Shown piece by piece: positions 1,193-51,836 of a stretch of DNA of 64,000 nucleotides. The position numbers and the translations under genes are program-made. Positions within the stretch are counted from its first letter, which is position 1, and each line of letters begins with the position of its first letter. The stretch is from Leucobacter sp. UT-8R-CII-1-4 (lineage in GTDB: Bacteria > Actinomycetota > Actinomycetes > Actinomycetales > Microbacteriaceae), in assembly GCF_030010235.1 (NCBI RefSeq), contig NZ_JASCRS010000004.1:1-64000 (forward strand), written 5' to 3'. Below the pieces are notes generated by a model. It was not told the origin of the DNA, ran no database searches, and was given only the letters and a program-made list of their open reading frames with translations.

Positions 1193-1222
1193 GAATGCTC
1201 CTTGTGTATTGGCCGATCTAAC

Positions 1223-1253
1223 TTGACATCAATGATACCCCCTAGGGTATTCT
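1223..1253 (+). promoter_or_regulatory. Promoter with first CstR/CsoR operator
   Basis: A consensus TTGACA (-35) is at 1223-1228 and a possible TATTCT (-10) at 1248-1253 with a long 19-bp spacer. The 16-bp sequence ATACCCCCTAGGGTAT (1235-1250), nearly symmetric with half-sites ATACCC and GGGTAT, fills the spacer. A repressor bound there would block RNA polymerase. The G-tract palindrome is typical of CsoR-family operators. Confidence 0.8.
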
Positions 1254-1262
1254 GTTTCATAG

Positions 1263-1278
1263 ATACCCCCTGGGGTAT
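1263..1278 (+). promoter_or_regulatory. Second CstR/CsoR operator
   Basis: ATACCCCCTGGGGTAT is a near copy of the operator 28 bp upstream and differs at one position. The tandem arrangement puts two tetramers close together, on about the same face of the helix, between the promoter and the first start codon at 1303. Confidence 0.8.
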
Positions 1279-1302
1279 AACTTGGACTTTAGGAGAACCT
1301 CA

Positions 1303-1488
1303 ATGTGCAGACCAACGAACTGCAAGACCTGTGGCAAAACCACCTGGGCGGGCTGCGGTCAGCACGTCGCTATGGTGAAAGCGAGCGTTCCCAGCTCGCA
1401 GTGGTGCAATGGCAAGCACAGCCAAGCCGAGATCGCGGCCGCTTCAGAATCGCGCCCCGGCTTTTTCGCACGTCTCTTCGGACGATAA
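1303..1488 (+). CDS. Small Cys-rich CxxC protein, first gene of the persulfide operon
   Basis: A 61-residue protein beginning MCRPTNCKTCGKTTW. Cys residues lie at positions 2, 7, 10, 18 and 35, so it may bind zinc or react with persulfide; neither is shown. The C-terminus is basic and aromatic (FFARLFGR). An upstream TTG would add seven residues, but the ATG at 1303 has AGGAGA seven bases before it, which decides the start. Similar small proteins with the same N-terminal motif are widespread in actinobacteria, from memory, with no assigned function. It overlaps in another frame with a longer spurious ORF that runs into trxA. Confidence 0.75.
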   Translation: MCRPTNCKTCGKTTWAGCGQHVAMVKASVPSSQWCNGKHSQAEIAAASESRPGFFARLFGR

Positions 1489-1502
1489 ACAAAGGAAGAA
1501 TC

Positions 1503-1877
1503 ATGGCAACAACCGACCTCACACTCGCAACATTCAATGACACCGTCGAGCGCGACGGGATCGCGATTGTAGATTTCTGGGCAGCTTGGTGCGGGCCGTG
1601 CCGATCCTTCGCGCCAACATATGAGCGCGCCTCAGAGCAGCACCCCGACATTGTGTTCGGCAAAGTCGATACAGAAGCCGAACAAGAACTCGCTGCCGGA
1701 TTCCGAATCACCTCAATTCCAACTCTCGCGATCTTCCGCGATGGCATCCTGCTCTACGCGCAGCCAGGAGCTCTCCCCGCAGGCCAGCTAGAACAGCTCA
1801 TTCAAGGCGCGAAAGAACTCGATATGGACGAAGTTCGCAAGCAGATCGACGAATCTGAACAGCCCGAAAAACAATAA
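1503..1877 (+). CDS. trxA: Thioredoxin
   Basis: A 124-residue thioredoxin fold protein with the canonical WCGPC redox motif (WAAWCGPCRSF, residues 27-37) and the cis-Pro segment TSIPTL. The C-terminus has an extra acidic helix of about 20 residues after the fold. It reduces disulfides and can reduce persulfides on protein thiols. The start ATG at 1503 has AAAGGAAG just upstream. It lies 14 bases after the small Cys-rich gene and 23 bases before the dioxygenase-rhodanese gene, so the three are one operon under the tandem operators. Confidence 0.93.
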   Translation: MATTDLTLATFNDTVERDGIAIVDFWAAWCGPCRSFAPTYERASEQHPDIVFGKVDTEAEQELAAGFRITSIPTLAIFRDGILLYAQPGALPAGQLEQLIQGAKELDMDEVRKQIDESEQPEKQ

Positions 1878-1900
1878 ACGCTAGAACCGGAGCCCACTAC

Positions 1901-7759: not shown

Positions 7760-9490
7760 ATGACTAATGCATCTTCTGCCCAAAGCTCGCTGCCCAGTCA
7801 GGCCGCAGCGGTCGCAGACCTTATGCAGCGACCGAACGCCCAAGTATTGATTCTTGGTGCTGGCATCAACGGAATCGCAACGTTCCGTGACCTCGCGCTG
7901 CAGGGGATCGACGTAGTGCTGGTTGATGCAGCCGATGTGATGAGCGGCGCATCTGCCGCATCAAGCCACATGATCCACGGCGGCGTTCGCTACCTCGAAA
8001 ACGGTGAATTTCGACTTGTGCGCGAGGCCGTACAAGAGCGAAATCGGCTCTTGCGCATCGCGCCGCACCTAGTGAAGCCACTAGAGACAACTATTCCGAT
8101 CTATTCGACATTCTCCGGGGTATTGTCAGCCCCCATGCGGTTTCTCATGCACGGTTCAAAAAAGAGCAAAGAACGCGGTGCCGCGCTCATCAAATTTGGG
8201 CTCACTCTCTACGACTCCTTCTCTCGCGACGGAGGCCGTGTGCCCCGACATCGCTTTCATGGACGCAAGAAGTCACTGCACGAATTCCCGCAACTTGACC
8301 CGAACGTCAAGTACACGGCGAGCTACTGGGACGCCTCGGCGCACAGCCCAGAACGTCTTGGTATAGACATGCTCCGCGATGCGATCACCGCCGGGAACGG
8401 TCGCGCGAGGGTTGCCAGCTATACCGCGGCAATCGGAACGCGCGATGGCGGAGTGCTACTATGTGACAACGTGCAGCAGACCGAAATTCTATTCAATGCA
8501 GACGTAGTCGTGAACGCGACAGGGCCCTGGGTTGAGCTTACGAACGAAGGATTCGGCGAACCCACCGCGTTCATGGGCGGCACAAAGGGCTCACACATCG
8601 TGCTGGACCACCCAGAATTGCTCGCTGCAACCAAGGGCCACGAAATCTTCTTCGAACACAATGACGGCAGGATCGTGCTGATCCACCCCCTGAACGGTCG
8701 CGTGCTGGTCGGCACAACCGACCTGGAGCACGACATGCGTGAGCCCGCCGAGTGCACCGAAGCCGAGATTGACTACTTCTTCGAACTGATCGCACACGTG
8801 TTCCCCGGTATTAAGGTCGGACGCCAAGACATTGTGCACTTGATGAGTGGCGTGCGACCCCTGCCACGTCACGTCGATCAAGCCCCAGGGTTTGTGTCAC
8901 GCGACTACCGGGTCGAACGCAGCGACTTCGCCGGCGCCAGCAAATCGATGCTGACCCTTATCGGAGGAAAGCTCACTACCTTTCGAGCATCAGCCGAAAC
9001 TATTACTGATCTGGTGCTGAGCGAACTTGGCGCGAGCCGCAACGTTTCCACCGCTGAGCTAGCAATTGGTGGCGGTAGAGATTTCCCAGCGAGTGACCGG
9101 GCGAAAGAACGTTGGATCGCAGCAGCAGCCTCCTCGATTCCGCGGGAGCGCCTTGCAATTCTGCTTGAACGATACGGCACACTCGCACTCGAAGTCGCAG
9201 ATGAGATTGAGCAAGGCCCAGACTCGCCGCTCGAATTTGTATCAGACTACTCACACGCTGAAATTGAGTACTTGACCAAAAACGAGTCTGTTGTGCACCT
9301 CACTGACCTGCTACGACGCCGCACAAACCTCGCATTCGTCGGAACTTCAGCGAGCGGTATCGCAGAAATCGCGAACATTATGGCTCCGATCCTCGCCTGG
9401 AACGAAGCGCAAATCGCAGCAGAAATTGCCGCAGCAGAACAGGAACTACTACCAAGAACACGTCTGGCGCTCGCCGCAGCCCCGCAGTGA
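7760..9490 (+). CDS. glpD: Glycerol-3-phosphate dehydrogenase, FAD-dependent
   Basis: A 576-residue FAD-dependent GlpD. The dinucleotide-binding motif ILGAGINGIATFRDLALQG is near the N-terminus, followed by SGASAASSHMIHGGVRYLE, a GlpD signature. GTKGSHIV, HPLNGRVLVGTTD and IGGKLTTFR are also characteristic. It oxidises glycerol-3-phosphate to dihydroxyacetone phosphate and passes electrons to the quinone pool at the membrane. An in-frame ATG at 7712 would start inside the operator palindrome; the ATG at 7760 is preferred, with the modest ribosome site GGAA. Confidence 0.92.
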   Translation: MTNASSAQSSLPSQAAAVADLMQRPNAQVLILGAGINGIATFRDLALQGIDVVLVDAADVMSGASAASSHMIHGGVRYLENGEFRLVREAVQERNRLLRIAPHLVKPLETTIPIYSTFSGVLSAPMRFLMHGSKKSKERGAALIKFGLTLYDSFSRDGGRVPRHRFHGRKKSLHEFPQLDPNVKYTASYWDASAHSPERLGIDMLRDAITAGNGRARVASYTAAIGTRDGGVLLCDNVQQTEILFNADVVVNATGPWVELTNEGFGEPTAFMGGTKGSHIVLDHPELLAATKGHEIFFEHNDGRIVLIHPLNGRVLVGTTDLEHDMREPAECTEAEIDYFFELIAHVFPGIKVGRQDIVHLMSGVRPLPRHVDQAPGFVSRDYRVERSDFAGASKSMLTLIGGKLTTFRASAETITDLVLSELGASRNVSTAELAIGGGRDFPASDRAKERWIAAAASSIPRERLAILLERYGTLALEVADEIEQGPDSPLEFVSDYSHAEIEYLTKNESVVHLTDLLRRRTNLAFVGTSASGIAEIANIMAPILAWNEAQIAAEIAAAEQELLPRTRLALAAAPQ

Positions 9491-9539
9491 CATAGAGTTC
9501 TCTGAGGAAACTTGTTTGAGAGAGCTCAGAGGAGAGCAA

Positions 9540-10922
9540 ATGGGCATGTCTTGGAAGCAGCACGGCGACGGCAAAACGGTCGCGCCTGATGCAATCGTCC
9601 TTCCAGAAGAGCGGCTGAGCTGGCCGAAGACCATCGGGTTTGGTGCGCAGCACGTAGTCGCGATGTTCGGTGCCACGTTCTTGGTGCCACTGCTGACCGG
9701 CTTCCCGCCGACCGCCACCCTGTTCTTCTCCGGCCTTGGCACCCTGCTCTTCTTGGTGCTTACCGGCAACCGCCTGCCAAGCTACCTCGGTTCATCGTTT
9801 GCGTTCCTTGCGCCCATCGGTGTGGCAACAGGGGTCGGCCTCGGCAGCGGCGACATGCCAAGCGCCGAAGGCTTCGCCCGAGCTTCGTTCGGCATTCTCG
9901 CCATCGGCGTACTGATGACGATTGTCGGCATTATTGTGCAGCGCTTCGGTACACGCTGGATCAACGCACTGATGCCACCGGTCGTCATGGGTGCAATTGT
10001 CGCCCTGATCGGATTCAACCTGGCGCCAGCAGTAAAGAACAACTGGAACGCCACCGCAAATTCGGGGTGGGTGGCGCTGATCACCATCGTGTCTGTGCTG
10101 CTGATCACCGTGATCTTCCGCGGAATTCTTGGCCGCCTCTCAATCGTGCTCGGCATGGGCGTTGGCTACCTTGCCGCCGTACTGATGGGAGAAGTGAACT
10201 TTGATGGTGTGCGCGACGCAGCCTGGATTGGCCTGCCAGACTTCCACCTGCCTGGCAACCCATTCTCTGATCCATCACTCTGGGGCCTGCTGCCAATGTT
10301 CTTGCCAGTAGTGCTTGTGCTGATTGCTGAAAACGTTGGTCACGTGAAGAGCGTTGGCCTCATGATCAACCGCGATCTTGACCCAGTCACCGGCCGGGCA
10401 CTACTTGCTGACGGTATTTCAACCATGCTCGCTGGTTTCGGCGGCGGCTCAGGCACGACCACCTATGGCGAGAACATCGGCGTGATGGCTGCGACCCGCG
10501 TCTACTCGACTGCCGCCTACTGGGCTGCCGGCATTATCGCGATGCTGCTTGGCTTCTCGCCAAAGGTTGGCGCGATTATCTTCTCGGTACCGGCCGGAGT
10601 GCTCGCCGGTGTCACCGTCGCGCTCTACGGCCTGATCGGTCTGATCGGTGTAAAGATCTGGATCGACAACAAAGTTGACTTCTCAAAGCCAATCAACCAG
10701 TTCACCGCTGCGGTTGCGCTGATTGTTGGTATCGCAGACTTCGGTCTCGTGCTTGGCTCGGAGTCGAGCCCAATTGTCTTCAACGGTATTGCGCTTGGCA
10801 CGCTAGCGGCGATCCTGGTGTACCACCTGATGGCTTGGGCCGCGCGAGTTCGTGGTCTCGGCGACGCTGTCAGTCCGATCGAGCCTGGGACCGGCTCGGT
10901 GAAGGTGCAAGAAGAGGCGTAA
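9540..10922 (+). CDS. Uracil/xanthine permease (NCS2 family)
   Basis: A 460-residue integral membrane nucleobase transporter with about 12-14 hydrophobic segments. Family marks are GFGAQHVVAMFGATFLVP at the N-terminus, ENVGHVKSVG (the conserved Glu near the substrate site) and GFGGGSGTTTYGENIGVMA. It imports uracil, xanthine or a related base with a proton. The ATG at 9540 sits five bases after AGAGGAG (9528-9534); a second ATG at 9546 is possible. The N-terminal extension visible in the open frame overlaps glpD and is not used. A strong terminator follows. Confidence 0.92.
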   Translation: MGMSWKQHGDGKTVAPDAIVLPEERLSWPKTIGFGAQHVVAMFGATFLVPLLTGFPPTATLFFSGLGTLLFLVLTGNRLPSYLGSSFAFLAPIGVATGVGLGSGDMPSAEGFARASFGILAIGVLMTIVGIIVQRFGTRWINALMPPVVMGAIVALIGFNLAPAVKNNWNATANSGWVALITIVSVLLITVIFRGILGRLSIVLGMGVGYLAAVLMGEVNFDGVRDAAWIGLPDFHLPGNPFSDPSLWGLLPMFLPVVLVLIAENVGHVKSVGLMINRDLDPVTGRALLADGISTMLAGFGGGSGTTTYGENIGVMAATRVYSTAAYWAAGIIAMLLGFSPKVGAIIFSVPAGVLAGVTVALYGLIGLIGVKIWIDNKVDFSKPINQFTAAVALIVGIADFGLVLGSESSPIVFNGIALGTLAAILVYHLMAWAARVRGLGDAVSPIEPGTGSVKVQEEA

Positions 10923-38198: not shown

Positions 38199-39077
38199 AT
38201 GCACGGTACACACCGAAAGCGCTACCGCACGCCCCTCACAATCTCGCTAATTGCCGCTGCAGCATTGACGCTCAGCGCATGCGCAGCAAATCCAGCAGCG
38301 ACGCCGGGTGATGACGGCGATGCAACACTGCCAAGCTCCATTGCTGAATCAGGCGTATTGAAGGTCGGTACAGAGCCACTTGTCGGCATGCCATGGACTG
38401 CGCTTGAAGACAACACAAACGCGAATATCGGTATCGACCCCGATATTGCGCGGGCTCTGGGCGAAGAACTCGGACTCGAAGTGGAGTTCGTGAACCTGAG
38501 CTTCGACAGCCTGATCCCCAGCCTCGAAGCCGGGCGAATCGACATCATCATGTCGGACATGCTCGATACCGAAGAACGGCAAGGCGCAATCGACTTCGTT
38601 GATTACGTAATAGGTGGAGACGGTCTGATGGTCTCTGCCAGCTCCAAGCTGAACCCTGCATCGACCGATGAGCTCTGCGGAACAACTGTCGGTGTGCTGC
38701 GAGGCGCTGCCGCGCACATCACGATCGAGGAAGTGAAATGTGACAGTTCAGAGCCGATCGATCTGCAAGTTTTTCCTGACGTGAACGCTCTGGTTACGGC
38801 CCTCGATAGTGCTCGAATCGAAGTCGCTTCGGGCGATCCATCGACTTGGGGTTATATGGCCCTCCAAGAGCCTGAGAAATACCGCGCTGTAGGTCAAGTA
38901 TTCAACTCAGGACCCCTCGGCATCGGCGTAGCCAAGGACTCGCCAATGTCAGCGGTAATTAGTGAAGCGTTGAACGGGCTGATTGAGAGCGGTAAATACC
39001 AAGAAATTCTGACTAGCTACGGTATGGGTGAGTCGAGCTTCATGGCTGAAGCGGCAGTGAACATGGGTCAATCGTGA
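38199..39077 (+). CDS. Polar amino acid ABC transporter, substrate-binding lipoprotein
   Basis: A 292-residue type 3 solute-binding lipoprotein. The lipobox is LTLSAC at residues 23-28 after a basic start and hydrophobic core. The mature part has PWTALEDNTNANIGIDPDIARALG, VEFVNLSFDSLIPSLEAGRIDI and PLGIGVAKDSP, all family marks. It should bind an amino acid outside the membrane. Start ATG follows GGAAGGTAG. Overlaps the permease gene by four bases. Confidence 0.92.
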   Translation: MHGTHRKRYRTPLTISLIAAAALTLSACAANPAATPGDDGDATLPSSIAESGVLKVGTEPLVGMPWTALEDNTNANIGIDPDIARALGEELGLEVEFVNLSFDSLIPSLEAGRIDIIMSDMLDTEERQGAIDFVDYVIGGDGLMVSASSKLNPASTDELCGTTVGVLRGAAAHITIEEVKCDSSEPIDLQVFPDVNALVTALDSARIEVASGDPSTWGYMALQEPEKYRAVGQVFNSGPLGIGVAKDSPMSAVISEALNGLIESGKYQEILTSYGMGESSFMAEAAVNMGQS

Positions 39078-39988
39078 GCCACACAAAACTTCCGTCCGGC
39101 GTGATCAAGGAAGATTCGCCGGGCGGGACTCCCGCCCTTGCGAGTCTGACGATTCACGCCTCTCGCCGACCAGGATTTTGGATTGCTGGCAGTCTCTGCC
39201 TAGCGCTGGTTCTGCTCATCGGTTACACACTTATTACGAATGACCGATTCCGCTGGAATGTGGTGTTTTCATTCCTGTTCGATCCGCGAATTCTCGCCGG
39301 TCTTGGACTCACGCTCATGCTCACCTTTGTGTGCATGATCATTGCATTCTTGCTAGGCACATTGCTGGCTGTGATGGACTCCTCACACAACCCCTTCGTG
39401 CGCGGCATCGCGCAGACATATCTGTGGGTGTTTCGTGGCACTCCAGTGCTCGTGCAACTCCTATTGTGGTTTAACCTTGGCGCGCTCTTTCCTGTGATCG
39501 GTGTTCCGGGCACCGTTTTTGCGTGGTCCGCGAACGACCTGATTTCGCCGCTTAGCGCAGCTATCTTGGGTCTCGCCCTCAACGAAGCTGCCTACATGGC
39601 AGAAATCATTCGATCGGGGTTGAACTCGGTCGATGCCGGGCAACGCGAGGCTGCCCAAGCGCTTGGTATGAAGAGCACGCTGTCATTTCGACGGGTCGTA
39701 TTGCCGCAAGCAATGCGCGTGATCGTGCCGCCTGCCGGAAACGAAGCAATCTCGATGCTGAAGTACACGTCTCTCGTTTCTGTCATTGCACTGCCAGAAC
39801 TGCTCTACTCGGCTCAGCTCATTGCCTCAAAGAACTTTCAAATTATTCCGATGCTTCTGGTTGCAACCATTTGGTATCTGGCTACCACGAGCGTGCTGAG
39901 CGTGATCCAGCGGCGTATTGAGGTGCGTCTCTCGCGAGGTGTCGCGCGAACCGCGGTGCAGTCGAAGGCGAAAGGAAAGCGCACATGA
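39074..39988 (+). CDS. Polar amino acid ABC transporter permease
   Basis: A 304-residue HisM/HisQ-type permease with about five to six transmembrane helices. A hydrophobic N-terminal extension of about 75 residues precedes the domain. The EAA loop is [28 protein letters not shown]. It pairs with the ATPase that starts four bases before its stop. Confidence 0.92.
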
Positions 39989-40755
39989 GTGGTACTCCAA
40001 TTATTGAGGCACACGAAATTCGCAAAACTTTTGGGCACAACGAGGTGCTGAAGGGCATCAACTTTGAGCTCAAAGCAGGCGAAGTGGTGTGCATTATCGG
40101 GCCGTCAGGTTCGGGGAAGAGCACCTTCTTGCGCTGCCTAAACCACTTAGAGCAGCCAACGAGCGGTCTTGTCCGAGTGGGCGATGAAGTAATGGGATAC
40201 GCACTGCGTGGTTCCGAGTTGCACGCGATCCCGGAGCGCAAGATCGCCGGTCAGCGCACCAAAGTCGGCATGGTGTTTCAGAAGTTTCACCTCTTCGGTC
40301 ACATGACGGTCGAAGAAAACATTATCGAAGCGCCGGTTCGCGTTGAGGGAGTATCAAAGGCCGAAGCGATCACCCGAAGCAACGAGTTGCTTGAGCGAGT
40401 AGGGCTGCATGACAGAAAAGATGCATACCCCGCACAGCTCTCGGGAGGACAGCAACAACGAGTCGCGATCGCGCGAGCACTCGCAATGCGGCCCGACGTG
40501 ATGCTTTTTGACGAGCCCACCTCGGCACTCGACCCCGAACTGGTCGGCGAAGTGCTTGCGGTGATGCAAGACCTGGCCGAGCACAGCGGCATGTCAATGG
40601 TCGTGGTGACTCACGAAATTGGTTTTGCACGCGAGGTAGGTAGCCGCGTGGTCTTCATGGATGACGGCTGCATCGTGGAAGAGGGCACAAGTGCACAGGT
40701 GCTAAGCAACCCACAGCACGAAAGAACGAAGGCGTTTTTGTCACGCATCTTGTGA
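39985..40755 (+). CDS. Polar amino acid ABC transporter ATPase
   Basis: A 256-residue GlnQ/HisP-type ATPase. Walker [10 protein letters not shown] near residue 38, Q-loop QKFHLF, signature LSGGQQQR, Walker [14 protein letters not shown] and the switch VTHEIGFA are all intact. It powers the operon's importer. Confidence 0.95.
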
Positions 40756-40770
40756 GTTTGTCTAACAAAC
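40756..40770. promoter_or_regulatory. Palindrome before the ureohydrolase gene
   Basis: GTTTGT and ACAAAC are perfect 6-bp arms separated by CTA, immediately after the ATPase stop. It may be an operator for a separate promoter of the ureohydrolase gene in the 115-bp gap. Confidence 0.4.
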
Positions 40771-40870
40771 AGCCACACATTTTCTGATCCAGCTATAAGC
40801 CCAATCAATAAGGGCGCTATTTGGTGTACCCAAAATGCGCACCTCGACACGAAAAGAACGGAAGTAAGAC

Positions 40871-41797
40871 ATGAAGTTCGAAGAAAAAGACCTCCGATTT
40901 ATGGGAAGTCCAAAGCAAGAAGACACGAGCAAAGTCGACACTCCCTTTGCTTTTGTTGGCATTCCCTATGGGGTGCCCTACCACGCCGTCGATCTTGTTG
41001 CCTGTGCTGGTGCGGCCGACGCGGTGCGCCAGGTCACCTACGACATGGGCATCGCATTCAACTGGGACCACATGAACTTCGACACCGGCAAAGCAATATT
41101 TGCAGACGGTGTGCCGACTGTCACCGATTGCGGCGACGTGCAGACCGATTTCCGAAACTCCGAGCAAATCTGGGATGACGGGATGGACAAGATTCGCCCT
41201 CTGGTGCGTGCTGGAGTGGTGCCTCTTGTTGTTGGCGGCCTTGACTCTATTCCGCCGATTGTGGTTGGTGCCTTCGAAGGCGAAGGTAAAACCTACAACA
41301 TTCTGCACATTGATGCGCATCTGGACTTTCGTGAGGAACGCTACGGGGTGCCACGCGGATTCTCGAGTCCAATCAGGCGGATACGTGAGTTTAGCTGCGT
41401 GAACGAAGTCGTGCAGATCGGTCTGCGTTCGATGGGAAGCGCAAGGGTCAGTGACGTCGAGGAAGCCCGCGCAGCGGGCAACCGATTGGTGACGGCATGG
41501 GAACTGCACGAACAAGGCGCCACAGCCTTCCTCGACACACTTTCAAGTGATCTCCCGTGGATCATTACGATCGATTGTGACGGACTCGATCCCGCGATTG
41601 CTCCTGGAGTGGGCTGGCCAGAGCCAGGCGGGATTACTTTCATGGAAATCGGCACAATCGTGCGAGGCCTCGCAAAGCGCAACTCTGTGGCAGGGATGAT
41701 CTTCACGGAGTTTCAGCCTGCACTTGACGAACGCGGGATTACTGCGAAAACTATTGCGCGCTTGATGATGAATGTCATCGGAATTCAGGACAACTAG
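40871..41797 (+). CDS. Arginase/agmatinase-fold ureohydrolase with an altered metal site
   Basis: A 308-residue ureohydrolase-superfamily protein. DAHLD (148-152) and DCDGLDP (235-241) supply most metal ligands. The GG(D/E)HS motif, whose His binds Mn(A), reads GGLDS at 122-126, with Asp125 in the His place. HFDAH-type spacing is otherwise normal. The family hydrolyses arginine, agmatine, guanidinobutyrate, formiminoglutamate or guanidine. It follows the amino acid importer under an Lrp regulator, so a guanidino compound imported by that system is a reasonable substrate. AAGTAAG precedes the ATG. Confidence 0.85.
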   Translation: MKFEEKDLRFMGSPKQEDTSKVDTPFAFVGIPYGVPYHAVDLVACAGAADAVRQVTYDMGIAFNWDHMNFDTGKAIFADGVPTVTDCGDVQTDFRNSEQIWDDGMDKIRPLVRAGVVPLVVGGLDSIPPIVVGAFEGEGKTYNILHIDAHLDFREERYGVPRGFSSPIRRIREFSCVNEVVQIGLRSMGSARVSDVEEARAAGNRLVTAWELHEQGATAFLDTLSSDLPWIITIDCDGLDPAIAPGVGWPEPGGITFMEIGTIVRGLAKRNSVAGMIFTEFQPALDERGITAKTIARLMMNVIGIQDN

Positions 41798-43391: not shown

Positions 43392-44543
43392 TTAGCGGGT
43401 GAGCGCTGCGGCGGCACCTGCGATGGCGCGCTCGATGTTCTCGGGCGAAGTCGCGAAGTTGAAACGAATGTGGTGCGCAAATTGGGTGCCGCAGGCGCCG
43501 CCGGGCACTGTGGCGACACCGGCACGCTGCAGCAGGAACTCTGCGGGTGACACGTCGAGTTCGTAGTCGGCGAAGTTGATCCATGCGAGATATGTGGCCT
43601 GCGGCTCACGGTACTGCGCCAGCGGAAGTGATTCGTTGAGTTGCGCCGTGAGTAGCTTGCGATTCGAGTCGAAGCGCAGAATCAGCTCATCAAGCCAGGC
43701 CAGTCCCTCATCGCTGTACGCCGATGCGATCCCAATCGCGCCGAGTGGGCTGCCGCTGCGCACCGGGTGCCGATCCAGGCGATCCCAATGCCCGCGCAAC
43801 TGATCATTTGGAATGATTGCGTGTGCTGCCTTCAACCCCGGAAGGTTCCAGCCCTTTGAGGGTGAGATTGCCGTGATCGAGCGCTGTGCCGCCTCTGGCG
43901 AAATGGAGGCAAAAGGTATGTGCGTTGATCCAGCGTAGACAAGCGGGGCGTGAATCTCGTCGACAAATAGGTACGCGTCATGACGTTCGGCGAGCTCCGC
44001 GAGCTGCGTGAGTGTTTCGCGATCGAGTACTTCGCCGGTTGGGTTGTGTGGGTTGCATAGCAACACGATGGAGCCGGGGACGCGCAATGAATCTGCCAGA
44101 AGTTCAAGGTCGAAGCCATTTGGCATTGGTACCGAGACGACTTCGCGGTTCATACTTTCGCAGACACCCGGGAAGGGCGAGTACCAGGGGCTCGGAATGA
44201 TGACGGGTGTGTGCTGGGGGAAAATCTCAAGTGCGATGTGCAGGGCTGAGAGCACGTCGGGTGTTGCCCGCACCCAGCTGGTTGGAAACGTCCAGCCGAA
44301 TCGTGTGCGGTACAACTCGCTGCAGGCCTCGCTGGCGAGTTCGGCGAGGTTGTCGGGTAGGTAGCTGAGGAGGTCTTCTTGCACGGCGCGGGCAAGGCGC
44401 TCTTTGATGAATGTTGCTGTGCCGAAGTCGCTTTCGGCGATGCCGGCCCCGATTGCGCCCTGCTGCTCGGCCCATTTGCGGCCGTGGGGGAGCGCCTGGT
44501 CTGCTCGCAATCGCGAGAAAAACTCATCGGTACGGTTCGACAT
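43392..44543 (-). CDS. PatB/MalY-type aminotransferase, probable C-S lyase
   Basis: A 383-residue PLP fold type I enzyme. The Schiff-base Lys is in SPSKGWNLPGLK and the phosphate/aromatic site in CNPHNPTGEVLD. MalY/PatB proteins cleave cystathionine or cysteine conjugates to pyruvate, ammonia and a thiol. ATG at 44543 follows AGAGGG. It is divergent from a LysR gene, which probably controls it. Confidence 0.88.
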   Translation of the reverse strand: MSNRTDEFFSRLRADQALPHGRKWAEQQGAIGAGIAESDFGTATFIKERLARAVQEDLLSYLPDNLAELASEACSELYRTRFGWTFPTSWVRATPDVLSALHIALEIFPQHTPVIIPSPWYSPFPGVCESMNREVVSVPMPNGFDLELLADSLRVPGSIVLLCNPHNPTGEVLDRETLTQLAELAERHDAYLFVDEIHAPLVYAGSTHIPFASISPEAAQRSITAISPSKGWNLPGLKAAHAIIPNDQLRGHWDRLDRHPVRSGSPLGAIGIASAYSDEGLAWLDELILRFDSNRKLLTAQLNESLPLAQYREPQATYLAWINFADYELDVSPAEFLLQRAGVATVPGGACGTQFAHHIRFNFATSPENIERAIAGAAAALTR

Positions 44544-44665: not shown

Positions 44666-45604
44666 ATGATCGAACTGAAGCAATTGCAGATGCTGGAGGC
44701 AATCAGCCAGCACGGCACGATCTCCGGTGCCGCGAAAGCCCTCGGTTACTCTCAACCCGCAATTTCGCAGCACATGGCGACGATCGAGCGCATGCTTGAA
44801 ACACCGGTGCTCGTTCGTAGCCGCTCCGGTGTGCATCTCACGGAGGCGGGCAAGCTGCTAGTTGACGCTGCCGGCCCGATTCTTGCTCAGGTTGGCCAGG
44901 TCATGTCTGAGGTTTCTGCGATTGCCGGGCTTCGCGCTGGCAAGGTGCGGGTGTCATGTTTTCCAAGCGCCGCATCTGTGTTGTTGCCCGGTGCGTTTGC
45001 GCACGTACGTGAGCGTCACCCGGGCCTATCGTTCGCGCTCGCTGAGCGTGATCCAGTTGGCGGTCTCGAGATGCTCAGGCGTGGGCAGTGCGACATTGCA
45101 ATCATTTTTGACTACGTCACGCCTGGGCTCGCGCAGCCCTCAAGCCGCCTAGAACTGCTGCCGAACGAGACAGCGGTGACGCTGCTCGAAGAGGAGATTA
45201 TGGTGGCATTGCCACCGACTCATGCGCGCGCAAAAGATCGCTGGATCGACATCGAGGTGCTTGAAGGTGAGCAGTGGATTGCTGGTTGCCCTGACTGCCG
45301 CACCCACCTTGTGGAGGCTTGCGAAATCGCCGGTTACCATCCGGACATCACCTTTGAAACTGACGACTATCTTGCGATGCAGGGACTGGTTGGTGCGGGT
45401 CTCGGCATCGCGCTGATTCCCGAGGTAGTGCTTGCCGCAGCGCGACACCAATACCCAATCGCTTTGCTGCCGACGCATCCGGTTTCAACGCGAGTGATCC
45501 GGGCGGTGACTACCGAATCGATGCTGCGTGTGCCTGGCATTGTGCCGACTATCGAAGCGTTGCAAGCTGCTGCAAAACAGCGCATTAGCGCCACACACGC
45601 GTAA
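44666..45604 (+). CDS. LysR-family transcriptional regulator
   Basis: A 312-residue LysR protein. The winged helix-turn-helix is at about 15-55 (AAKALGYSQPAISQHMATIERMLE). The C-terminal effector domain is of the periplasmic-binding fold. It lies between the divergent C-S lyase gene and the ABC transporter operon and could control either or both. Confidence 0.93.
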   Translation: MIELKQLQMLEAISQHGTISGAAKALGYSQPAISQHMATIERMLETPVLVRSRSGVHLTEAGKLLVDAAGPILAQVGQVMSEVSAIAGLRAGKVRVSCFPSAASVLLPGAFAHVRERHPGLSFALAERDPVGGLEMLRRGQCDIAIIFDYVTPGLAQPSSRLELLPNETAVTLLEEEIMVALPPTHARAKDRWIDIEVLEGEQWIAGCPDCRTHLVEACEIAGYHPDITFETDDYLAMQGLVGAGLGIALIPEVVLAAARHQYPIALLPTHPVSTRVIRAVTTESMLRVPGIVPTIEALQAAAKQRISATHA

Positions 45605-45645: not shown

Positions 45646-45660
45646 ATAAGCGCCGCTTAT
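45646..45660. promoter_or_regulatory. Palindrome before the ABC transporter operon
   Basis: ATAAGCG-C-CGCTTAT is a perfect 15-bp palindrome about 90 bases before the substrate-binding gene. The overlapping GCAATAAG (45643-45650) has an exact inverted copy CTTATTGC at 45688-45695, so two sites may be bound together. Confidence 0.6.
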
Positions 45661-45749: not shown

Positions 45750-46787
45750 ATGATGACTGTACGACGAAGTATTGTGGCGATAGCGCTCGCTGCCGTAACG
45801 GCCCTGACTCTCGGGGCTTGCGCGCCAACAGCAGGGCCAGCCGAAGGCTCAGACCCCGACGCGCCCACCAAGATCTCCTTCATGTATTCGCCATATGCCG
45901 ACTACGCAGGCTTCTTCGTAGCTCAGGAAAAGGGATACTTCGCCGAAGAGGGTCTCGAGGTTGAACTGATTGCCAAGGGTGGCAGCTCAGGTGAGACCTT
46001 CCAGCACGTCAGCACCGGCAACGTCACCGGTGGTGGCGCTTCATGGGGTGCTGGCCTCTTCAACGCAACCGCGGCAGGTGCGTCACTTGCCGTTGTCGGA
46101 GGCGTTTCGCGCATCCCCGAGAGCGGACCAAACCCTGCTCCGCTGATGGCATCTGAGGCTTCAGGCATCAAAGAACTGAAAGACCTCAAGGGCAAGAAAA
46201 TCGGTACGCCTGGCCAGACCGGGTTTGGTATCTACTCGATCTACCTCGCACTCGACTCGGTCGGTCTCACACTCGATGACGTCGAACTGGTAAACCTGGG
46301 CCCTGCCGAAATCATCCCAGCAATGGCGAACGGCTCGATCGACGCCAGCTGGACCATTGAGCCGATCTCAACCGCGCTCAAGAACGAAGGCATCGCGCAC
46401 GAGATCACTGACATCAGCTACCAGGCTGGCACCGAGCTCGGCATGATCATCTTCAACAATGAGTTCGCAAACAAGAACGAAGAAGCCATTGTTGGCTTCC
46501 TCACCGCTTACTTCCGTGCAGTCGGAGAGCTGAACGATGGCGGCTGGCAGGATCCAGAGATTCAGCAGATCGTCGCAGATTACACCGATCTGCCGGTCGA
46601 GACTCTCGGCTCAATCGCCCTCTCAGAAGCAGATGCCGCTGGCGAGATCGACTGGAAGAACGTTGTAGCCCAGGAGAAGTTCCTGCGCGGTCTCGGCGTG
46701 CTCGAATACCAGGGCGACCTCGACCTCAAAGAAATTGACCGCTCAGACCTGCGCGAGCAGGCAGTAGCAAAGCTCAAGGGAGAGTAA
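45750..46787 (+). CDS. NitT/TauT-type ABC transporter substrate-binding lipoprotein
   Basis: About 345 residues. The signal peptide ends in the lipobox LTLGAC. The mature protein begins ISFMYSPYADYAGFFVAQEKGYFAEEGLEVE, the NMT1/SsuA-like start, and contains GGVSRIPESGPN and KKIGTPGQTGFGIYS. Known relatives bind pyrimidine precursors, sulfonates, nitrate or aromatic acids. GGAG lies just before ATG 45750/45753. First gene of a six-gene operon. Confidence 0.9.
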   Translation: MMTVRRSIVAIALAAVTALTLGACAPTAGPAEGSDPDAPTKISFMYSPYADYAGFFVAQEKGYFAEEGLEVELIAKGGSSGETFQHVSTGNVTGGGASWGAGLFNATAAGASLAVVGGVSRIPESGPNPAPLMASEASGIKELKDLKGKKIGTPGQTGFGIYSIYLALDSVGLTLDDVELVNLGPAEIIPAMANGSIDASWTIEPISTALKNEGIAHEITDISYQAGTELGMIIFNNEFANKNEEAIVGFLTAYFRAVGELNDGGWQDPEIQQIVADYTDLPVETLGSIALSEADAAGEIDWKNVVAQEKFLRGLGVLEYQGDLDLKEIDRSDLREQAVAKLKGE

Positions 46788-46789
46788 CG

Positions 46790-47554
46790 ATGAGCGCGGT
46801 CTCTCTGGATGGTCTCTGGATGGCCTACCCAAATGCCGAGTCCGAGAACGGAATTCGAGTAGTGCTCGAAGACGTTTCACTCGAAATCGCTGAGGGTGAG
46901 TTTGTCTGTGTGCTCGGCCCGTCCGGGTGCGGAAAGAGCACGATCCTGAGGATCGTTGCTGGTCTTGAAAAACAGAGCCTCGGCACGGTAACCACCAAAA
47001 GCCGACCCTCTGTTGTCTTCCAAGAGCACGGTATCTTTCCGTGGCTCACGGTTGCTCAGAACGTTGCCTACCCGCTGAAACTGCGGGGAGTGCCAAAGGC
47101 TGAGCGCCGCGCAAAGGTTGATGAGCTGCTTGAGCTTGTCGGCCTGAGCGATTTCTCGAAGTACTATCCGGCTCAGATCTCGGGCGGCATGCGCCAGCGT
47201 GCGTCGGTCGCCCGAGCTCTTGCCGATGACGGCGATGTGCTGCTGATGGACGAACCATTTGGCGCACTCGATGAGCAGACCCGAGTCACTCTGCAGCAAG
47301 ATCTGCTCGACATTTGGGACCGCACCTCGAAAGCCGTAATGTTCATTACCCACAGCGTCGACGAGGCGCTGCTGCTTGCCGATCGGGTACTCGTCATGTC
47401 TACCCGCCCGGGCAAGATCATCGAAGAGGTGAAGATTCCCTTCGAGCGTCCGCGTGACCTCGCGAGTCTGCGCCGCGACCCTAGATACGCCGAAATCACC
47501 GCGCAGCTTTGGGCAGTGCTCGGCAGCGACGTTGCAGAAGAAGAGGTGGCGTAA
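46790..47554 (+). CDS. NitT/TauT-type ABC transporter ATPase
   Basis: A 254-residue SsuB/TauB-type ATPase. Walker A is GPSGCGKST near residue 42, Q-loop FQEHGIFPWL, Walker B VLLMDEPFGALDEQTR, switch THSVDEALLLADR. The ABC signature reads ISGGMRQR. It follows the binding protein by two bases. Confidence 0.95.
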   Translation: MSAVSLDGLWMAYPNAESENGIRVVLEDVSLEIAEGEFVCVLGPSGCGKSTILRIVAGLEKQSLGTVTTKSRPSVVFQEHGIFPWLTVAQNVAYPLKLRGVPKAERRAKVDELLELVGLSDFSKYYPAQISGGMRQRASVARALADDGDVLLMDEPFGALDEQTRVTLQQDLLDIWDRTSKAVMFITHSVDEALLLADRVLVMSTRPGKIIEEVKIPFERPRDLASLRRDPRYAEITAQLWAVLGSDVAEEEVA

Positions 47555-48396
47555 TGTCAAACACAGTCACGCAAGTTGCCACTGCAGAAGTCATCGACGC
47601 GAACACCGAAAAGCGACTGATTGCAGCGGTGAATGCCGCGCAGGGCTCAAAGTTCATTCGACGCATCGGGCCTTTCACCCCGGTTCTGCTGATTCTGATC
47701 TGGGAGATCTGTGGCCAGGTTGGTCTGCTTGACCAGCGCTTTTTCCCCGCGCCTTCAACGATTCTTGGCACTTTTGGCACGATGATCGCGAGCGGTCAGC
47801 TGCTCGCCGATATCAGCATCACGTTGACGCGTATCGGTATCGGGTTCTTGATGGGTGCGATTCCAGGCATCGTGCTGGGCCTGCTGCTCGGCTCGGTTCG
47901 CCCATTGCGCCAGCTACTTGAACCAATTTTCGCTTGCTTGCTGCCGATTCCAAAGATCGCGATCTTCCCGCTGTTGCTGCTGATCTTCGGTCTCGGCGAG
48001 ACGAGCAAGTACCTGATCGTAGCGATCGGCGTCTTCTTCTACCTGTTCTTCAACACCCTCACTGGCGTGATGCAGACACCCGCACTTTTCACTGACGTGG
48101 CGCGCGCGAACGGTGCAACCAAGTTGCAGACCCGTCTCACGGTGTCGCTGCCGTACGCGCTTCCTTCAATTTTCACCGGCATTAAGCTCGCTACCGGCGG
48201 CGCGTTTGTGATTATTGCTGCGGCCGAGTTCGTTGGTTCGCAAAGCGGTCTTGGTTACCTTATTTGGAGCGCCTGGTCAGCTTTTGCGGTCGCGAAAATG
48301 TATGTCGGTATCGTCACAATTTCGGTGCTTGGCTACGCCTTCAGCGTGCTCTGGGGCTGGATCGAGCGCAGGCTTGTGCCCTGGGTGAAGTACTAA
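47554..48396 (+). CDS. NitT/TauT-type ABC transporter permease
   Basis: A 280-residue SsuC-type permease with about six transmembrane helices and the EAA loop ARANGATKLQTRLTVSLPYALPS. ATG at 47554 overlaps the ATPase stop (TAATG). The longer open frame is not used. Confidence 0.95.
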   Translation: MSNTVTQVATAEVIDANTEKRLIAAVNAAQGSKFIRRIGPFTPVLLILIWEICGQVGLLDQRFFPAPSTILGTFGTMIASGQLLADISITLTRIGIGFLMGAIPGIVLGLLLGSVRPLRQLLEPIFACLLPIPKIAIFPLLLLIFGLGETSKYLIVAIGVFFYLFFNTLTGVMQTPALFTDVARANGATKLQTRLTVSLPYALPSIFTGIKLATGGAFVIIAAAEFVGSQSGLGYLIWSAWSAFAVAKMYVGIVTISVLGYAFSVLWGWIERRLVPWVKY

Positions 48397-49460
48397 TGTC
48401 CACTCACCCTGGCATCGAAGAGGCTACGCTTCGGCAGCTTGCGAGCGAGGTGTTTTCGCGGTGGATCACCCCTCGTGATCAGGCCACCGGCCGCGAGTTG
48501 GTGTGCGAAAGCGATGTTGCCCTGGCTGTGCGCTGGTTGGTGAGCGCTGAGCGGCTCGGGCTTGGCGCATTCGGTGCTGATTTGCTTGCGCGTGAAACAG
48601 TTCGGCTTGCTGGCCACCCCCTCAGCCGGCCGGAGCCGCATCGTGCTGCCGGCGCGGTCACTGCGATTGACGCGATTGACCTGCCAGGCCAGCTCGCGCT
48701 TGCTGCTGGTGTGCGTGTGTTGGGTGAGGGTGTTGCCGCAAACGGCATCTATGCAGTGAGTCTTGCGCATGTTGGCGCGCTTGGCGTGCTTGGCTTGGCT
48801 GCGAGTGAGCTTGCGGAGCAGGGCTACCTTGCGGTGTTCTGTGCGAACGCGCCAGCTATGGTTGCGCCGTGGGGTGGCACTGCGCCCGCCATCGGCACGA
48901 ATCCGCTTGCGATTGCTGCCCCACGCGCCGATCGGTCACCCTTGGTGATCGACTACGCAACATCACCAATCACTATGGCGGCGCTCAAGAAGGCTGCGGT
49001 TGCCGGGGCAGAGATTGCGGATCCTGGTGGCTTCACCGCTGAGGGTGCGGCTACCACCGTAGCGGCACAGGTGCGCACCATTGCGAGTGATAGCCGAATC
49101 TCTTCGCTCACAGGGTTGTCTATCGAATTGTTGGCCCGCGCCGCAGCTGGCGCAAAGACTTCGGCAGCTGGCGCGGCTGCCGCCGCTGATGCACCCAAGG
49201 GTGCGACGAACGGGCCGTCTGGTGTGCGAACTGGTCTACTGCTGGCCTTGGACCCACAGTTTTTTGGGACCGAGTTCTTCGCCGAAGATGTTGCTGAACT
49301 TGCAGCACAGTGGGCCGGTGCGGGCGGGCATGTGCCGGCACGTTTCGACGCACGCGAAAAGTTTGAACACGAGCAGCGGGGTCCGCTAGAAATAAGCTCT
49401 GCAACCCTCGCGACGCTACACGACTTCGTGACTGGTAACCAGGTATCTAACGAGAATTGA
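48396..49460 (+). CDS. Ldh/malate-type oxidoreductase, unusual
   Basis: A 354-residue member of the Ldh_2 family (NAD(P)-dependent oxidation of 2-hydroxy acids or reduction of keto acids). The core VAPWGGTAPAIGTNPLAIAAP is strongly conserved and the catalytic-type His appears in LAHVGALG. The N-terminal SHG motif reads AFG (GLGAFGADLL), and the C-terminal half has an Ala-rich insertion of about 25 residues. Activity may be altered. It is coupled to the permease by TAATG. Confidence 0.8.
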   Translation: MSTHPGIEEATLRQLASEVFSRWITPRDQATGRELVCESDVALAVRWLVSAERLGLGAFGADLLARETVRLAGHPLSRPEPHRAAGAVTAIDAIDLPGQLALAAGVRVLGEGVAANGIYAVSLAHVGALGVLGLAASELAEQGYLAVFCANAPAMVAPWGGTAPAIGTNPLAIAAPRADRSPLVIDYATSPITMAALKKAAVAGAEIADPGGFTAEGAATTVAAQVRTIASDSRISSLTGLSIELLARAAAGAKTSAAGAAAAADAPKGATNGPSGVRTGLLLALDPQFFGTEFFAEDVAELAAQWAGAGGHVPARFDAREKFEHEQRGPLEISSATLATLHDFVTGNQVSNEN

Positions 49461-49469
49461 GGCGAAGAC

Positions 49470-50810
49470 TTGACTTCTGATCGAGCACTCAAGATTACGG
49501 TGACTCCGAGCGATGCGGAGCTGTGGCAACGTCGTTCGATTCAAGTGTCGGGGGCAACGCCCGGTGCGGTGGTCACCGTAACATCGAGCACTCTGCGTGA
49601 CGGTGTCGTCTGGTCGAGCCAGGCGAGTTTCCTGTCTGGCCTCGACGGCGCAGTGAATCTCGATACCGAGGCGCCTGTCTCCGGCCGTTACCGCAACGCT
49701 GACGCAATGGGGCTGATTTGGTCGCAGCGAGCCGAGGGTGGTGGCCGAGCCAGACCGGAACCGTCTTCGGTTGCTGAGCCTTTAGTTACGAAGCTTGAGG
49801 CCTGGAGCGAGCCGGGCACCGGCGACTACGCGCAGCCGGGCCCCGGCGCAGTGACCGAGCGAGGCGAAGCCGAGTTGATCCAACGTTTGCACCCTGGCGG
49901 TGTGGAACGTGTTGAGGTCACTGAAGATGGTCTTGTGGGCACAGTGTTTGTGCCTGAGGGTGAGGGCCCCTTCCCGACGATTATTGTGATGAATGGCTCG
50001 GGCGGTGGCGTGAACGAGCTGCGCGCGGCGCAGTATGCCTCACGCGGCATTCAAGCTTTTGCGCTCGGATACTTCCGCGTGCCGGGACGCTCTGATTTCA
50101 TCTCACGCACCCCTATTGAGTACTTCGAGACCGCCATCGACTACGCCGCGCGAGAGTTGAACCCGCTCGGGGGCAAGCCGCTCGTGAGCGGCCAATCGCG
50201 CGGCGGCGAGCTCACCCTGCTACTTGCATCGCGTTTCCCAGAGAAGATCGCAGGCATTGTGGCTTTTGTGCCTGGTGCTTTCACCTTCGGCGCGCAGGGT
50301 GCCGCAGACCCTGCCGAGGGGTGGAGCGGGCCGACTTGGACTTGGCAAGACGAGCCGCTTGAGCACCTTTGGCACAACAATAGCGGAGTGTACTGGCAGC
50401 CTTGGGACGGTGAAATGCCAACGTATCCCGATCAAGACATATACATTGACGGGCTGCACGATCGCGAGCTGGCCAAAGCCAGTTTGATTCCGATTGAGCG
50501 GTTCAGTGGTCCCGTGGCCTGTGTCTCGGGGCTTGATGATCGGGCGTGGCCTTCAAGCATGGCCTCGCGTATGGCGCTCGGGGCGCTTGAGCGGGCCGGG
50601 CATACCGCGGAACGCCTGCACCTTGACTATGAGGCAGCCGGTCACGGTATCGCGGTGCCGTTTTTGCCGTCGACCAATATCGAAGTAAAGCATCCAGTTT
50701 CGGGTGCGCCGTATTCAAACGGGGGCACTCCGCTTGGTAATGCGCGGGCTTCGGAACAGTCGTTTGAAGAAGTGGTCGCCTTTGTGCGACGTTCGGCCGT
50801 CGGCTCGTAG
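49470..50810 (+). CDS. BAAT-type acyl-CoA thioesterase/acyltransferase-like hydrolase
   Basis: A 446-residue protein with an N-terminal BAAT/acyl-CoA thioester hydrolase beta domain and a C-terminal alpha/beta-hydrolase. The nucleophile is in VSGQSRGGEL, the Asp in GLDDRAWPS and the His in EAAGHGIAVPF, all in BAAT order. A TTG start at 49470 follows GAGGCGAAG. It lies nine bases after the Ldh-type gene. Confidence 0.82.
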   Translation: MTSDRALKITVTPSDAELWQRRSIQVSGATPGAVVTVTSSTLRDGVVWSSQASFLSGLDGAVNLDTEAPVSGRYRNADAMGLIWSQRAEGGGRARPEPSSVAEPLVTKLEAWSEPGTGDYAQPGPGAVTERGEAELIQRLHPGGVERVEVTEDGLVGTVFVPEGEGPFPTIIVMNGSGGGVNELRAAQYASRGIQAFALGYFRVPGRSDFISRTPIEYFETAIDYAARELNPLGGKPLVSGQSRGGELTLLLASRFPEKIAGIVAFVPGAFTFGAQGAADPAEGWSGPTWTWQDEPLEHLWHNNSGVYWQPWDGEMPTYPDQDIYIDGLHDRELAKASLIPIERFSGPVACVSGLDDRAWPSSMASRMALGALERAGHTAERLHLDYEAAGHGIAVPFLPSTNIEVKHPVSGAPYSNGGTPLGNARASEQSFEEVVAFVRRSAVGS

Positions 50811-50879
50811 CCGGCGCCAAAAGATGAGAGATTCTGGCAGTCAGCTTCTGCCTGCAGTACACACACGAAAGGGAGCACC

Positions 50880-51755
50880 ATGACAACAAATGAGCACCTC
50901 GAAGGGCAGTGGCGCGAGTGGCGTTACGCGCACGTCGCTGAAATGTTTCGACCATACGGCTGGACCGCTCTCGTAGCTCAGTACTGGCTGCACGAGGGTG
51001 ACAGTGGCCGTAGTTTCGAGATGCTGCCGGGCACCTGGGGTGTCGAAGGCGGCCGGGTCATGTTCACTCCACCTAGCGACGGCGCGAACCTTTCGGTCAA
51101 CGGCGAATACCCGCAGTCGCCTGTCGAGATTATTCCGGGCCGTAATATGACCTATGGTCACGGTGCGAGCCAGCCGGTGTATTTCGGCGAGAACGAGGTT
51201 GAGACCCTCGTTCGCTCAACTGACAACGGCGAAGAAATTTATGGTTTGCGTGTGCGCGATCCGAAGCAGGCTTCGAGCCTGGTGGAGGCGGGCATCACCG
51301 AATATCCTTACGATCCGGCTTGGCGTATTCCGGCACGTTTTGTTCCGACTGAGCGGATCGATGTTGAGGCGGTTACGGTCGAGACCGGTGTGCGCGAGGT
51401 AACCCCGCACATCGGCACGCTTGAGTTTGAGTACGACGGTAAGGCATACAGCGTGGTTGTGCTTGGGAAAGACACTGACGCGGGTAAAACTCAGGCGGTG
51501 GCGCATGTGCGTGACCGTACGAGTGGCCCAATTACCTATGGTGCAGGGCGCGTGATCGAGCTTGATTTTGTTGGCGAGGGCGAGGATCGCATTGACTTTA
51601 TCGATTTCAACTACGCGGCCGCGCTACCGTGTGCCTTCACGAATTTTGTGACCTGCCCGTTCCCTCCGGCTCAAAACAATCTCGATTTCGAGGTCGCCGC
51701 TGGTGAGAAGAAGCCGGTTGTGGAGATTGCGCGCACGCTAACGTTTTCAGCTTAA
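50880..51755 (+). CDS. DUF1684 domain protein
   Basis: A 291-residue DUF1684 protein. The C-terminal CAFTNFVTCPFPPAQNNLDF is the family signature. No secretion signal. Function unknown. It follows the BAAT gene by 69 bases with GAAAGGGAG before the ATG and closes the transporter operon, ahead of a two-way terminator. Confidence 0.85.
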   Translation: MTTNEHLEGQWREWRYAHVAEMFRPYGWTALVAQYWLHEGDSGRSFEMLPGTWGVEGGRVMFTPPSDGANLSVNGEYPQSPVEIIPGRNMTYGHGASQPVYFGENEVETLVRSTDNGEEIYGLRVRDPKQASSLVEAGITEYPYDPAWRIPARFVPTERIDVEAVTVETGVREVTPHIGTLEFEYDGKAYSVVVLGKDTDAGKTQAVAHVRDRTSGPITYGAGRVIELDFVGEGEDRIDFIDFNYAAALPCAFTNFVTCPFPPAQNNLDFEVAAGEKKPVVEIARTLTFSA

Positions 51756-51773
51756 GTTGGCGATCCCGCGCTA

Positions 51774-51825
51774 AAAAAATAGTGCACCGTGTGGCTCAGG
51801 TTGAGTACACGGCGCACTATTTTTG
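51774..51825. terminator. Bidirectional terminator
   Basis: AAAAATAGTGC-CCGTGT and ACACGG-GCACTATTTTT are arms of a long hairpin with A and T tracts on both sides. It serves both the DUF1684 operon and the minus-strand gene ending at 51837. Confidence 0.85.
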
Positions 51826-51836
51826 CGCTAAAACTT

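Follow-up and report, generated by a model that had tools for sequence, protein, structure and literature searches.

A conserved six-gene uptake operon of Leucobacter and distantly related bacteria encodes an Ldh_2-fold protein without the family histidines, a BAAT-type hydrolase and a DUF1684 protein

Several described systems resemble parts of a six-gene operon that we analyzed in Leucobacter sp. UT-8R-CII-1-4, where it lies within the first 64,000 nucleotides of contig NZ_JASCRS010000004.1 (assembly GCF_030010235.1; this whole stretch is the window). The operon encodes the binding protein, ATPase and permease of an ATP-binding cassette (ABC) importer, followed by an Ldh_2-like protein, a BAAT-type hydrolase and a DUF1684 protein (Table 1). 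Organosulfur clusters with an LLM-type flavin monooxygenase, such as the Bacillus subtilis yxe cluster, which we take to include an importer, likewise combine import with small processing enzymes, and relatives of DUF1684 occur in LLM clusters; the operon differs in having no LLM monooxygenase, flavin reductase, acetyltransferase or M20 deacetylase and contains instead the hydrolase, the Ldh_2-like protein and DUF1684. The compound handled by yxe is described as S-(2-succino)cysteine (PMC9706529). With SsuABC and TauABC the operon shares a three-part ABC importer with a binding protein of the NMT1/SsuA class, and these systems are among its nearest NCBIfam models, but all scores fall under the cutoffs and SsuD, SsuE and TauD are not in the window operon. 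The Ldh_2-like protein has the fold and the GTNP motif of the AllD-type L-sulfolactate dehydrogenase-like (Ldh_2) oxidoreductases, whereas the positions of their catalytic histidines, Arg48 and Lys224 are replaced. The hydrolase has the two domains and the Ser-Asp-His residues of type I acyl-CoA thioesterases/BAAT (ACOT2, ACOT4), but it is bacterial and sits in an import operon without an acyl-CoA-forming gene. Finally, the DUF1684 protein shares its C-terminal domain with uncharacterized haloarchaeal proteins of solved structure (2lnu, 2lok, 4dlh, 4fj4) and with HVO_1043, in the latter case together with a Cx7C motif, but differs from them in a predicted beta-rich N-terminal region and in its place in an uptake operon. 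The literature that our searches reached contained no published description of the operon and no known pathway with this gene set, in line with the first-pass annotation, which had recognized none.

The operon is a conserved unit in distantly related bacteria. A search of 120 related genomes found close relatives of the BAAT-type hydrolase in 11, among them the window genome; the ten other proteins are 61-66% identical to it (at least 555 bits), and the remaining matches reach at most 203 bits. A scan of a genome collection gave 26 named loci, of which 18 belong to Leucobacter, Agromyces, Microbacterium, Bifidobacterium psychraerophilum and Burkholderiales bins and eight more distant ones (38-43% identity) to Bordetella and Achromobacter. 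With each genome counted once, the close-type operon occurs in 23 genomes, and the six genes stand in the same order in 20 of them: the window genome, nine other Leucobacter, three Agromyces, three Microbacterium, one Bifidobacterium, L044, L043 and G328. The Bifidobacterium copy has an inserted GntR/FCD gene, and DUF1684 of L043 is cut by a contig end; in the other three genomes (L024, L042 and L056) contig ends truncate the operon, and the genes that can be seen are in order. With the same order in 20 of 23 genomes, the array is not a chance one. The earlier proposal of an import step and subsequent processing by one conserved operon is supported. For these counts duplicate records were merged (L024=L049, L026=L046, L027=L058, L028=L048, L029=L050, L032=L053, L033=L055 and L054=L102), some genus genomes being the same records as named Leucobacter loci; genes in other genomes were called with a simple purpose-made caller, and gene-neighbor matches around operon copies were taken at a threshold of 45 bits. 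The carriers L042-L044 are Burkholderiales metagenome bins, for which a binning error is possible.

The same three of the 396 genomes searched in the order carry both a DUF1684 match of 490 bits or more and an Ldh_2-like match of 180 bits or more; the next-best matches reach 154 and 109 bits, respectively. In Agromyces soli, the BAAT-type and DUF1684 proteins are fused in one open frame of 748 residues with three Pfam domains (L045:7992-10238); in A. mediolanus they are encoded by two separate genes. In another Leucobacter, a distant BAAT homologue (30%) adjoins an ATPase and a permease resembling those of the window importer (L037:8307-11205).

All six genes run head-to-tail on the + strand (45753-51755), and every Pfam-A score is above gathering. 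The genes for the binding protein and the ATPase are 2 nt apart, TAATG start/stop overlaps join ATPase to permease (47552-47556) and permease to the Ldh_2-like gene (48394-48398), the BAAT-type gene begins with TTG 9 nt past the Ldh_2-like gene, and DUF1684 follows after 69 nt with a likely ribosome-binding site ahead of it. Alternative ATG codons for the binding protein lie at 45738 and 45750, and its orthologues favor the start at 45753. Place and number of the genes, as well as the translational coupling of importer and Ldh-type gene, are thus as the first-pass annotation had them. The six genes are likely to share one predicted transcript because a hairpin follows the last of them; the hairpin was not listed by a consensus scan, and a promoter scan found nothing.

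The Ldh_2-like protein is conserved but, as judged from alignments, unable to use the known mechanism of its family, because the positions of both family histidines, of Arg48 and of Lys224 are replaced; it would be either a pseudoenzyme or an enzyme with a new activity. The family fold itself is present: the AlphaFold2 model has a pLDDT (predicted local distance difference test) of 82.7, and its 27 PDB matches with E<=0.001 are all members of the Ldh_2 family. Alignment with solved relatives shows that each of the 18 copies aligned, from both Actinobacteria and Burkholderiales, has xFG at the SHG site and (V/A)GA(L/M)G at the STHFG site, so that Phe and Ala occupy the positions of AllD His44 and His116 throughout. 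By alignment, the position equivalent to Arg48 is Leu or Met, and a lysine is not conserved among the copies at the fourth cofactor place (Lys224 of AllD). In a nineteenth copy (L103 of G328, 8744-9885) the gene is broken across two frames while the rest of its operon is intact, and the two frames show the same replacements at both sites. The altered N-terminal SHG motif had been noticed before, correctly but with understatement given that the second family histidine is lost too.

A working Ldh-type oxidation step was therefore rejected, and the oxidation assigned to this protein in the first-pass annotation is unlikely. Could the catalytic residues have been relocated in a dehydrogenase that still works? 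The GTNP motif and a later Asp are kept, with T168, P170 and D186 invariant in all 18 copies; by the alignment with 1vbi and by spacing these match Thr156, Pro158 and Asp174, three residues of the AllD cofactor site. Against this stand the loss of both histidines and of the Arg48 and Lys224 positions, the split copy in L103, and a divergence faster than that of its neighbors (mean pairwise identity of 49.7% in 18 copies compared with 67-76% for the other five proteins in 19 copies). For E. coli AllD, moreover, the H116A and R48A mutants are reported as inactive, and His44 and His116 are called invariant across the superfamily (PMC3527362). We consider a relocated active site unlikely.

The hydrolase has ACOT4 and ACOT2 as its sole PDB relatives at E<=0.01, and S243, D356/D357 and H392, invariant in 11 aligned sequences, align with the triad of human ACOT4, so that the full Ser-Asp-His set noted earlier holds. 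Of the acyl transfer or hydrolysis then envisaged, hydrolysis by the BAAT-type protein is still plausible. The DUF1684 protein, whose score compares with a Pfam gathering threshold of 25, is the sole match to this family in the window genome. C251 and C259, the cysteines of its Cx7C motif, are invariant in 11 aligned sequences; in the wider family the pair is present in 25 of 33 members, and the other eight retain the second cysteine. The predicted model is poor (mean pLDDT 51) and gave no structural match at E<=0.001, its high-probability matches being other DUF1684 structures only, plus a very weak FHA hint. Haloferax HVO_1043 has been placed in a thiol-relay group by its Cx7C motif, in a paper that, as far as its text on DUF1684 goes, reports no tested function for the family (PMC9426492).

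The importer is assigned by its family matches to the sulfonate/taurine/nitrate class. The best NCBIfam models are SsuA_fam for the binding protein (104.8 bits, cutoff 163.5), SsuC for the permease (125.8 bits, cutoff 347) and SaoA, NtrCD and the taurine ATPase for the ATPase, all under cutoff (taurine ATPase 213.4 bits, cutoff 357); by NCBIfam equivalog and subfamily cutoffs, none of the subunits is a member of SsuABC or TauABC. PDB relatives of the binding protein include TauA as well as THI13/THI5 structures. Its orthologues are 55-64% identical to it, except those of L043 (42%) and L057 (52%).

Support for the idea that the imported compound contains sulfur comes from the neighborhoods of DUF1684 genes elsewhere, which point by association to organic sulfur. 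DUF1684 matches occur in 173 of the 396 genomes of the order. We compared 34 other loci (14 in a first batch and 20 in a second; 33 could be placed) with 20 hand-picked control stretches from genomes of the same set, within five genes. An LLM flavin monooxygenase is found near 12 of 33 DUF1684 genes and in none of 20 controls (Fisher p 0.0013); with a broader LLM profile the counts are 12/33 and 1/20 (p 0.009). Because the families were picked after viewing the first 14 loci, with seed proteins from those and related loci, the first batch is not independent; the second batch alone gives 7/20 against 0/20 (p 0.004), or 7/20 against 1/20 with the broader profile (p 0.022). The counts are by locus, and species are not independent; by genus, the narrower LLM search gives 9/20 against 0/15. 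ABC ATPases (14/33, controls 2/20) and peptide-type substrate-binding proteins (7/33, no control) are also frequent, MetQ is found at 3/33 and no control (not significant alone), SufS and SufU at 2/33, and NMT1 at 1/33. Family models (matches with E<=1e-10 at these and other context loci) identify a MetQ/MetN-type importer with NlpA and NIL-ATPase proteins beside DUF1684 in L104, and NtaA/DmoA-type LLM enzymes as well as proteins of the SufS and SufU types in L107. L164 has an Rrf2 regulator, for which CymR is the best equivalog model, below cutoff. L105, a locus left out of the count, looks like a further MetN/MetI/MetQ-DUF1684 array.

The promoter region of the operon provides a second link. 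The sequence TGACNNAATNTGAC is present with at most two mismatches in 14 of 20 operon upstream regions (nine Leucobacter, three Microbacterium and two Agromyces) and not in those of the window, L054, L057, L043, L044 and L103. Apart from these six and from L052, a near copy of L051, 8 of 13 site-bearing regions have the exact sequence, which is found in none of the shuffled sequences. This promoter site is the TGACCGAATGTGAC site. Its strict form, TGACCRAATRTGAC, has nine copies in 54 genus genomes (reversed control pattern, 0): five ahead of this operon, whereas the remaining four all fall in a single different intergenic region, which lies ahead of a peptide-type importer and borders a flavoprotein gene on its other side. 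In G029 (L124), family models identify the genes of this second context as TIGR04028, a TIGR04029/TIGR04030 fusion protein and PF13454, and the gene starts in G025, G008 and G042 are the same. A PF13454 protein, 29.5% identical, also lies beside a DUF1684-LLM cluster in L151. In Corynebacterium glutamicum, cg2674-cg2678 encode a carboxymuconolactone decarboxylase-like protein, a duplicated ATPase, a permease and a binding protein; a table in PMC2807442 marks these genes as targets of McbR, which places them in a sulfur regulon. By gene make-up, not by sequence comparison, they are the apparent counterpart of the TIGR04028-type importer. TIGR04028 and TIGR04030 are each above cutoff in 1 of 14 control genomes, with C. 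glutamicum among those with some match, and neither is over cutoff in the window genome.

A third link lies in the surroundings of the distant BAAT relatives. Two Bordetella, B. ansorpii and B. genomosp. 13, have the BAAT gene after a same-strand cluster of SfnB-like, SsuE, SsuD, MetN- and MetQ-like and Mop genes; in L066, where the families were checked, SsuE and SsuD are over cutoff and the SfnB-like and MetN/MetQ-like proteins under it, and L065 was matched by its gene starts. However, the distant BAAT relatives also have another neighborhood. An NMT1-type binding protein, a CoA ligase of the AMP-binding family, a 4HBT thioesterase and an MDR reductase adjoin BAAT in 8 of 8 Bordetella/Achromobacter loci (L059-L062 and L064-L067; families assigned by Pfam in L059 and relatives of these found in all), on the BAAT strand in six and on the opposite strand in B. 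ansorpii and B. genomosp. 13.

Because of the DUF1684 neighborhoods, the promoter site shared with a TIGR04028-type importer, and the BAAT relatives beside SsuE-SsuD, we favor a model, with a chance of being right that we put just short of even, whereby the operon serves the uptake and processing (scavenging) of organic sulfur. In this model, the importer would supply the cell with a small organosulfur molecule, the BAAT-type hydrolase would split an acyl (thio)ester or amide linkage of this molecule or a derivative, and DUF1684 would receive or protect the released thiol via its cysteines, a hand-over that fits the BAAT-DUF1684 fusion in A. soli. The Ldh_2-like protein, lacking known 2-hydroxyacid chemistry, might be a ligand-binding partner or have a new activity, and the product might feed the cysteine and methionine supply of hosts that are mostly without PAPS/APS reductase. 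We tentatively extend this to a sulfur release that is free of monooxygenases, in which the former dehydrogenase (as a pseudoenzyme or new enzyme), the hydrolase and DUF1684 act together, although this part of the proposal is doubtful. The organic acid or amide suggested as substrate in the first-pass annotation is possible, but the DUF1684 neighborhoods and the promoter site favor an organic sulfur compound.

A number of observations weigh against organosulfur scavenging. The operon has no direct tie to sulfur, and the link through the promoter site is indirect: the window copy and five others are without the TGAC site, a looser form of it also occurs elsewhere in G013, and the counterpart in C. 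glutamicum was assigned by gene make-up. By Pfam, neither an LLM monooxygenase nor a flavin reductase is among the six genes, and all importer scores are below cutoffs. Among DUF1684 loci, 10 of 33 have none of the sought families nearby, 8 of 33 proteins are without the Cx7C pair, and LLM enzymes act on non-sulfur compounds too. The near-absence of PAPS/APS reductase is genus-wide and does not separate carriers of the operon from non-carriers. Finally, the CoA ligase, 4HBT thioesterase and MDR reductase beside BAAT in all eight Bordetella/Achromobacter loci suggest acyl-CoA chemistry.

This last observation is the main support for a role in carbon or nitrogen catabolism, in which an organic acid, ester or amide would be imported, activated elsewhere and hydrolyzed by the BAAT-type enzyme; a CoA-transferase III gene and a TctC binding protein near the L044 operon fit such a role as well. 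The CoA-ligase cluster and the LLM match in a control led us to raise this possibility and to lower that of organosulfur scavenging. Still, complete copies have no ligase or CoA-transferase between the operon genes, and the DUF1684 and promoter-site associations point elsewhere, making carbon or nitrogen catabolism possible but somewhat unlikely. As a narrow case of organosulfur scavenging, the operon might import a sulfonate or taurine derivative, with the BAAT-type protein acting as an amidase for N-acyl-taurine or a similar compound. The importer subunits have SsuABC/TauABC-class models as or among their nearest, TauA is among the PDB relatives of the binding protein, and BAAT lies beside SsuD/SsuE in two Bordetella; however, the scores are all under the cutoffs, THI5-type and nitrate-type proteins score similarly, and a sulfonate monooxygenase or dioxygenase is not in the operon, so that we regard this narrow case as decidedly improbable. 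Salvage of a thiamine precursor (pyrimidine), known for other NMT1/THI5-like binding proteins, is the least credible explanation: it would account for the NMT1/THI5 Pfam match and the THI13/THI5 structures, but the six genes include no known thiamine enzyme, and nothing in 44400-52300 matches Rfam at gathering score, hence no thiamine pyrophosphate riboswitch. By the same result we rejected riboswitches, and with them simple control by thiamine or S-adenosylmethionine.

Leucobacter as a genus probably needs reduced or organic sulfur, because PAPS/APS reductase is mostly absent: a family member above cutoff is present in 2 of the 54 genomes of the genus, neither of them among the 11 carriers, and the same search recovers the family in all 14 control genomes. 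For the window genome, completeness is rated at 93%. Elsewhere in the window, 911-3328 encodes a CsoR/FrmR-type repressor, a thioredoxin and a metallo-beta-lactamase-rhodanese protein, which resemble persulfide-handling genes, and 38199-41797 encodes a polar amino acid type ABC importer, whose binding protein is of the SBP_bac_3 family, and after it an arginase-family ureohydrolase.

The window genome probably gained its operon independently of the other Leucobacter; this is the simplest reading of the tree position of the window copy, its differing flanks and its lack of the shared promoter site. In a tree of five concatenated proteins the copy pairs with G328 (support 0.935), next to both included Burkholderiales copies (0.998), apart from a clade of the other Leucobacter copies, and the window flanking genes used as queries have no match in the stretches around other Leucobacter operons. 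The LysR-type regulator upstream likely controls the window copy, and a palindrome of the T-N11-A type between its gene and the operon is a candidate LysR site. This palindrome has its sole exact copy in the window genome at this place; at two mismatches it is no commoner than a reversed control, and a wider LysR regulon was rejected on this ground. The best LysR match in other genus genomes is 37% identical. The stretches retrieved around the nine further complete operons of the genus contain no match to LysR or to the PatB-type protein, and both were rejected as core parts of the operon; whether the PatB-type protein belongs to the system is uncertain.

Table 1 Coordinates of the operon and of adjoining features in the window
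Feature	Position	Strand	Basis
PatB-type C-S lyase family protein, divergent from LysR	43392..44534	-	NCBIfam C_S_lyase_PatB 236 bits, under cutoff 340
LysR-type regulator directly upstream of operon	44666..45604	+	Pfam LysR
Palindrome ATAAGCGCCGCTTAT, T-N11-A type, candidate LysR site	45646..45660		15 bases, between LysR gene and operon
Substrate-binding lipoprotein, NMT1/SsuA-like	45753..46787	+	Pfam PF09084 (NMT1/THI5), 103.6 bits
ABC importer ATPase	46790..47554	+	Pfam ABC_tran, 99.2 bits
ABC importer permease	47554..48396	+	Pfam BPD_transp_1, 83.9 bits
Ldh_2-fold protein without both family histidines	48396..49460	+	Pfam Ldh_2, 122.5 bits
BAAT / type I acyl-CoA thioesterase-like hydrolase	49470..50810	+	Bile_Hydr_Trans 68.3 bits and BAAT_C 87.7 bits
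DUF1684 protein	50880..51755	+	Pfam PF07920, 113.2 bits; C251-x7-C259
Predicted terminator hairpin 3' of operon	51766..51832	+	RNA fold -35.7 kcal/mol, z -6.54

The presence of PAPS/APS reductase in only 2 of 54 Leucobacter genomes raises the question of how the genus is supplied with sulfur. The operon gives a bacterial BAAT-type hydrolase a defined genetic setting, and its Ldh_2-like protein offers a clean case of a dehydrogenase fold that appears to have been retained after loss of the catalytic residues, across bacteria as distant as Leucobacter and Burkholderiales. A link to organic sulfur would make the widespread DUF1684 family testable, and if a monooxygenase-free route as proposed here is true, thiol capture in organosulfur scavenging would be the first metabolic role for DUF1684.

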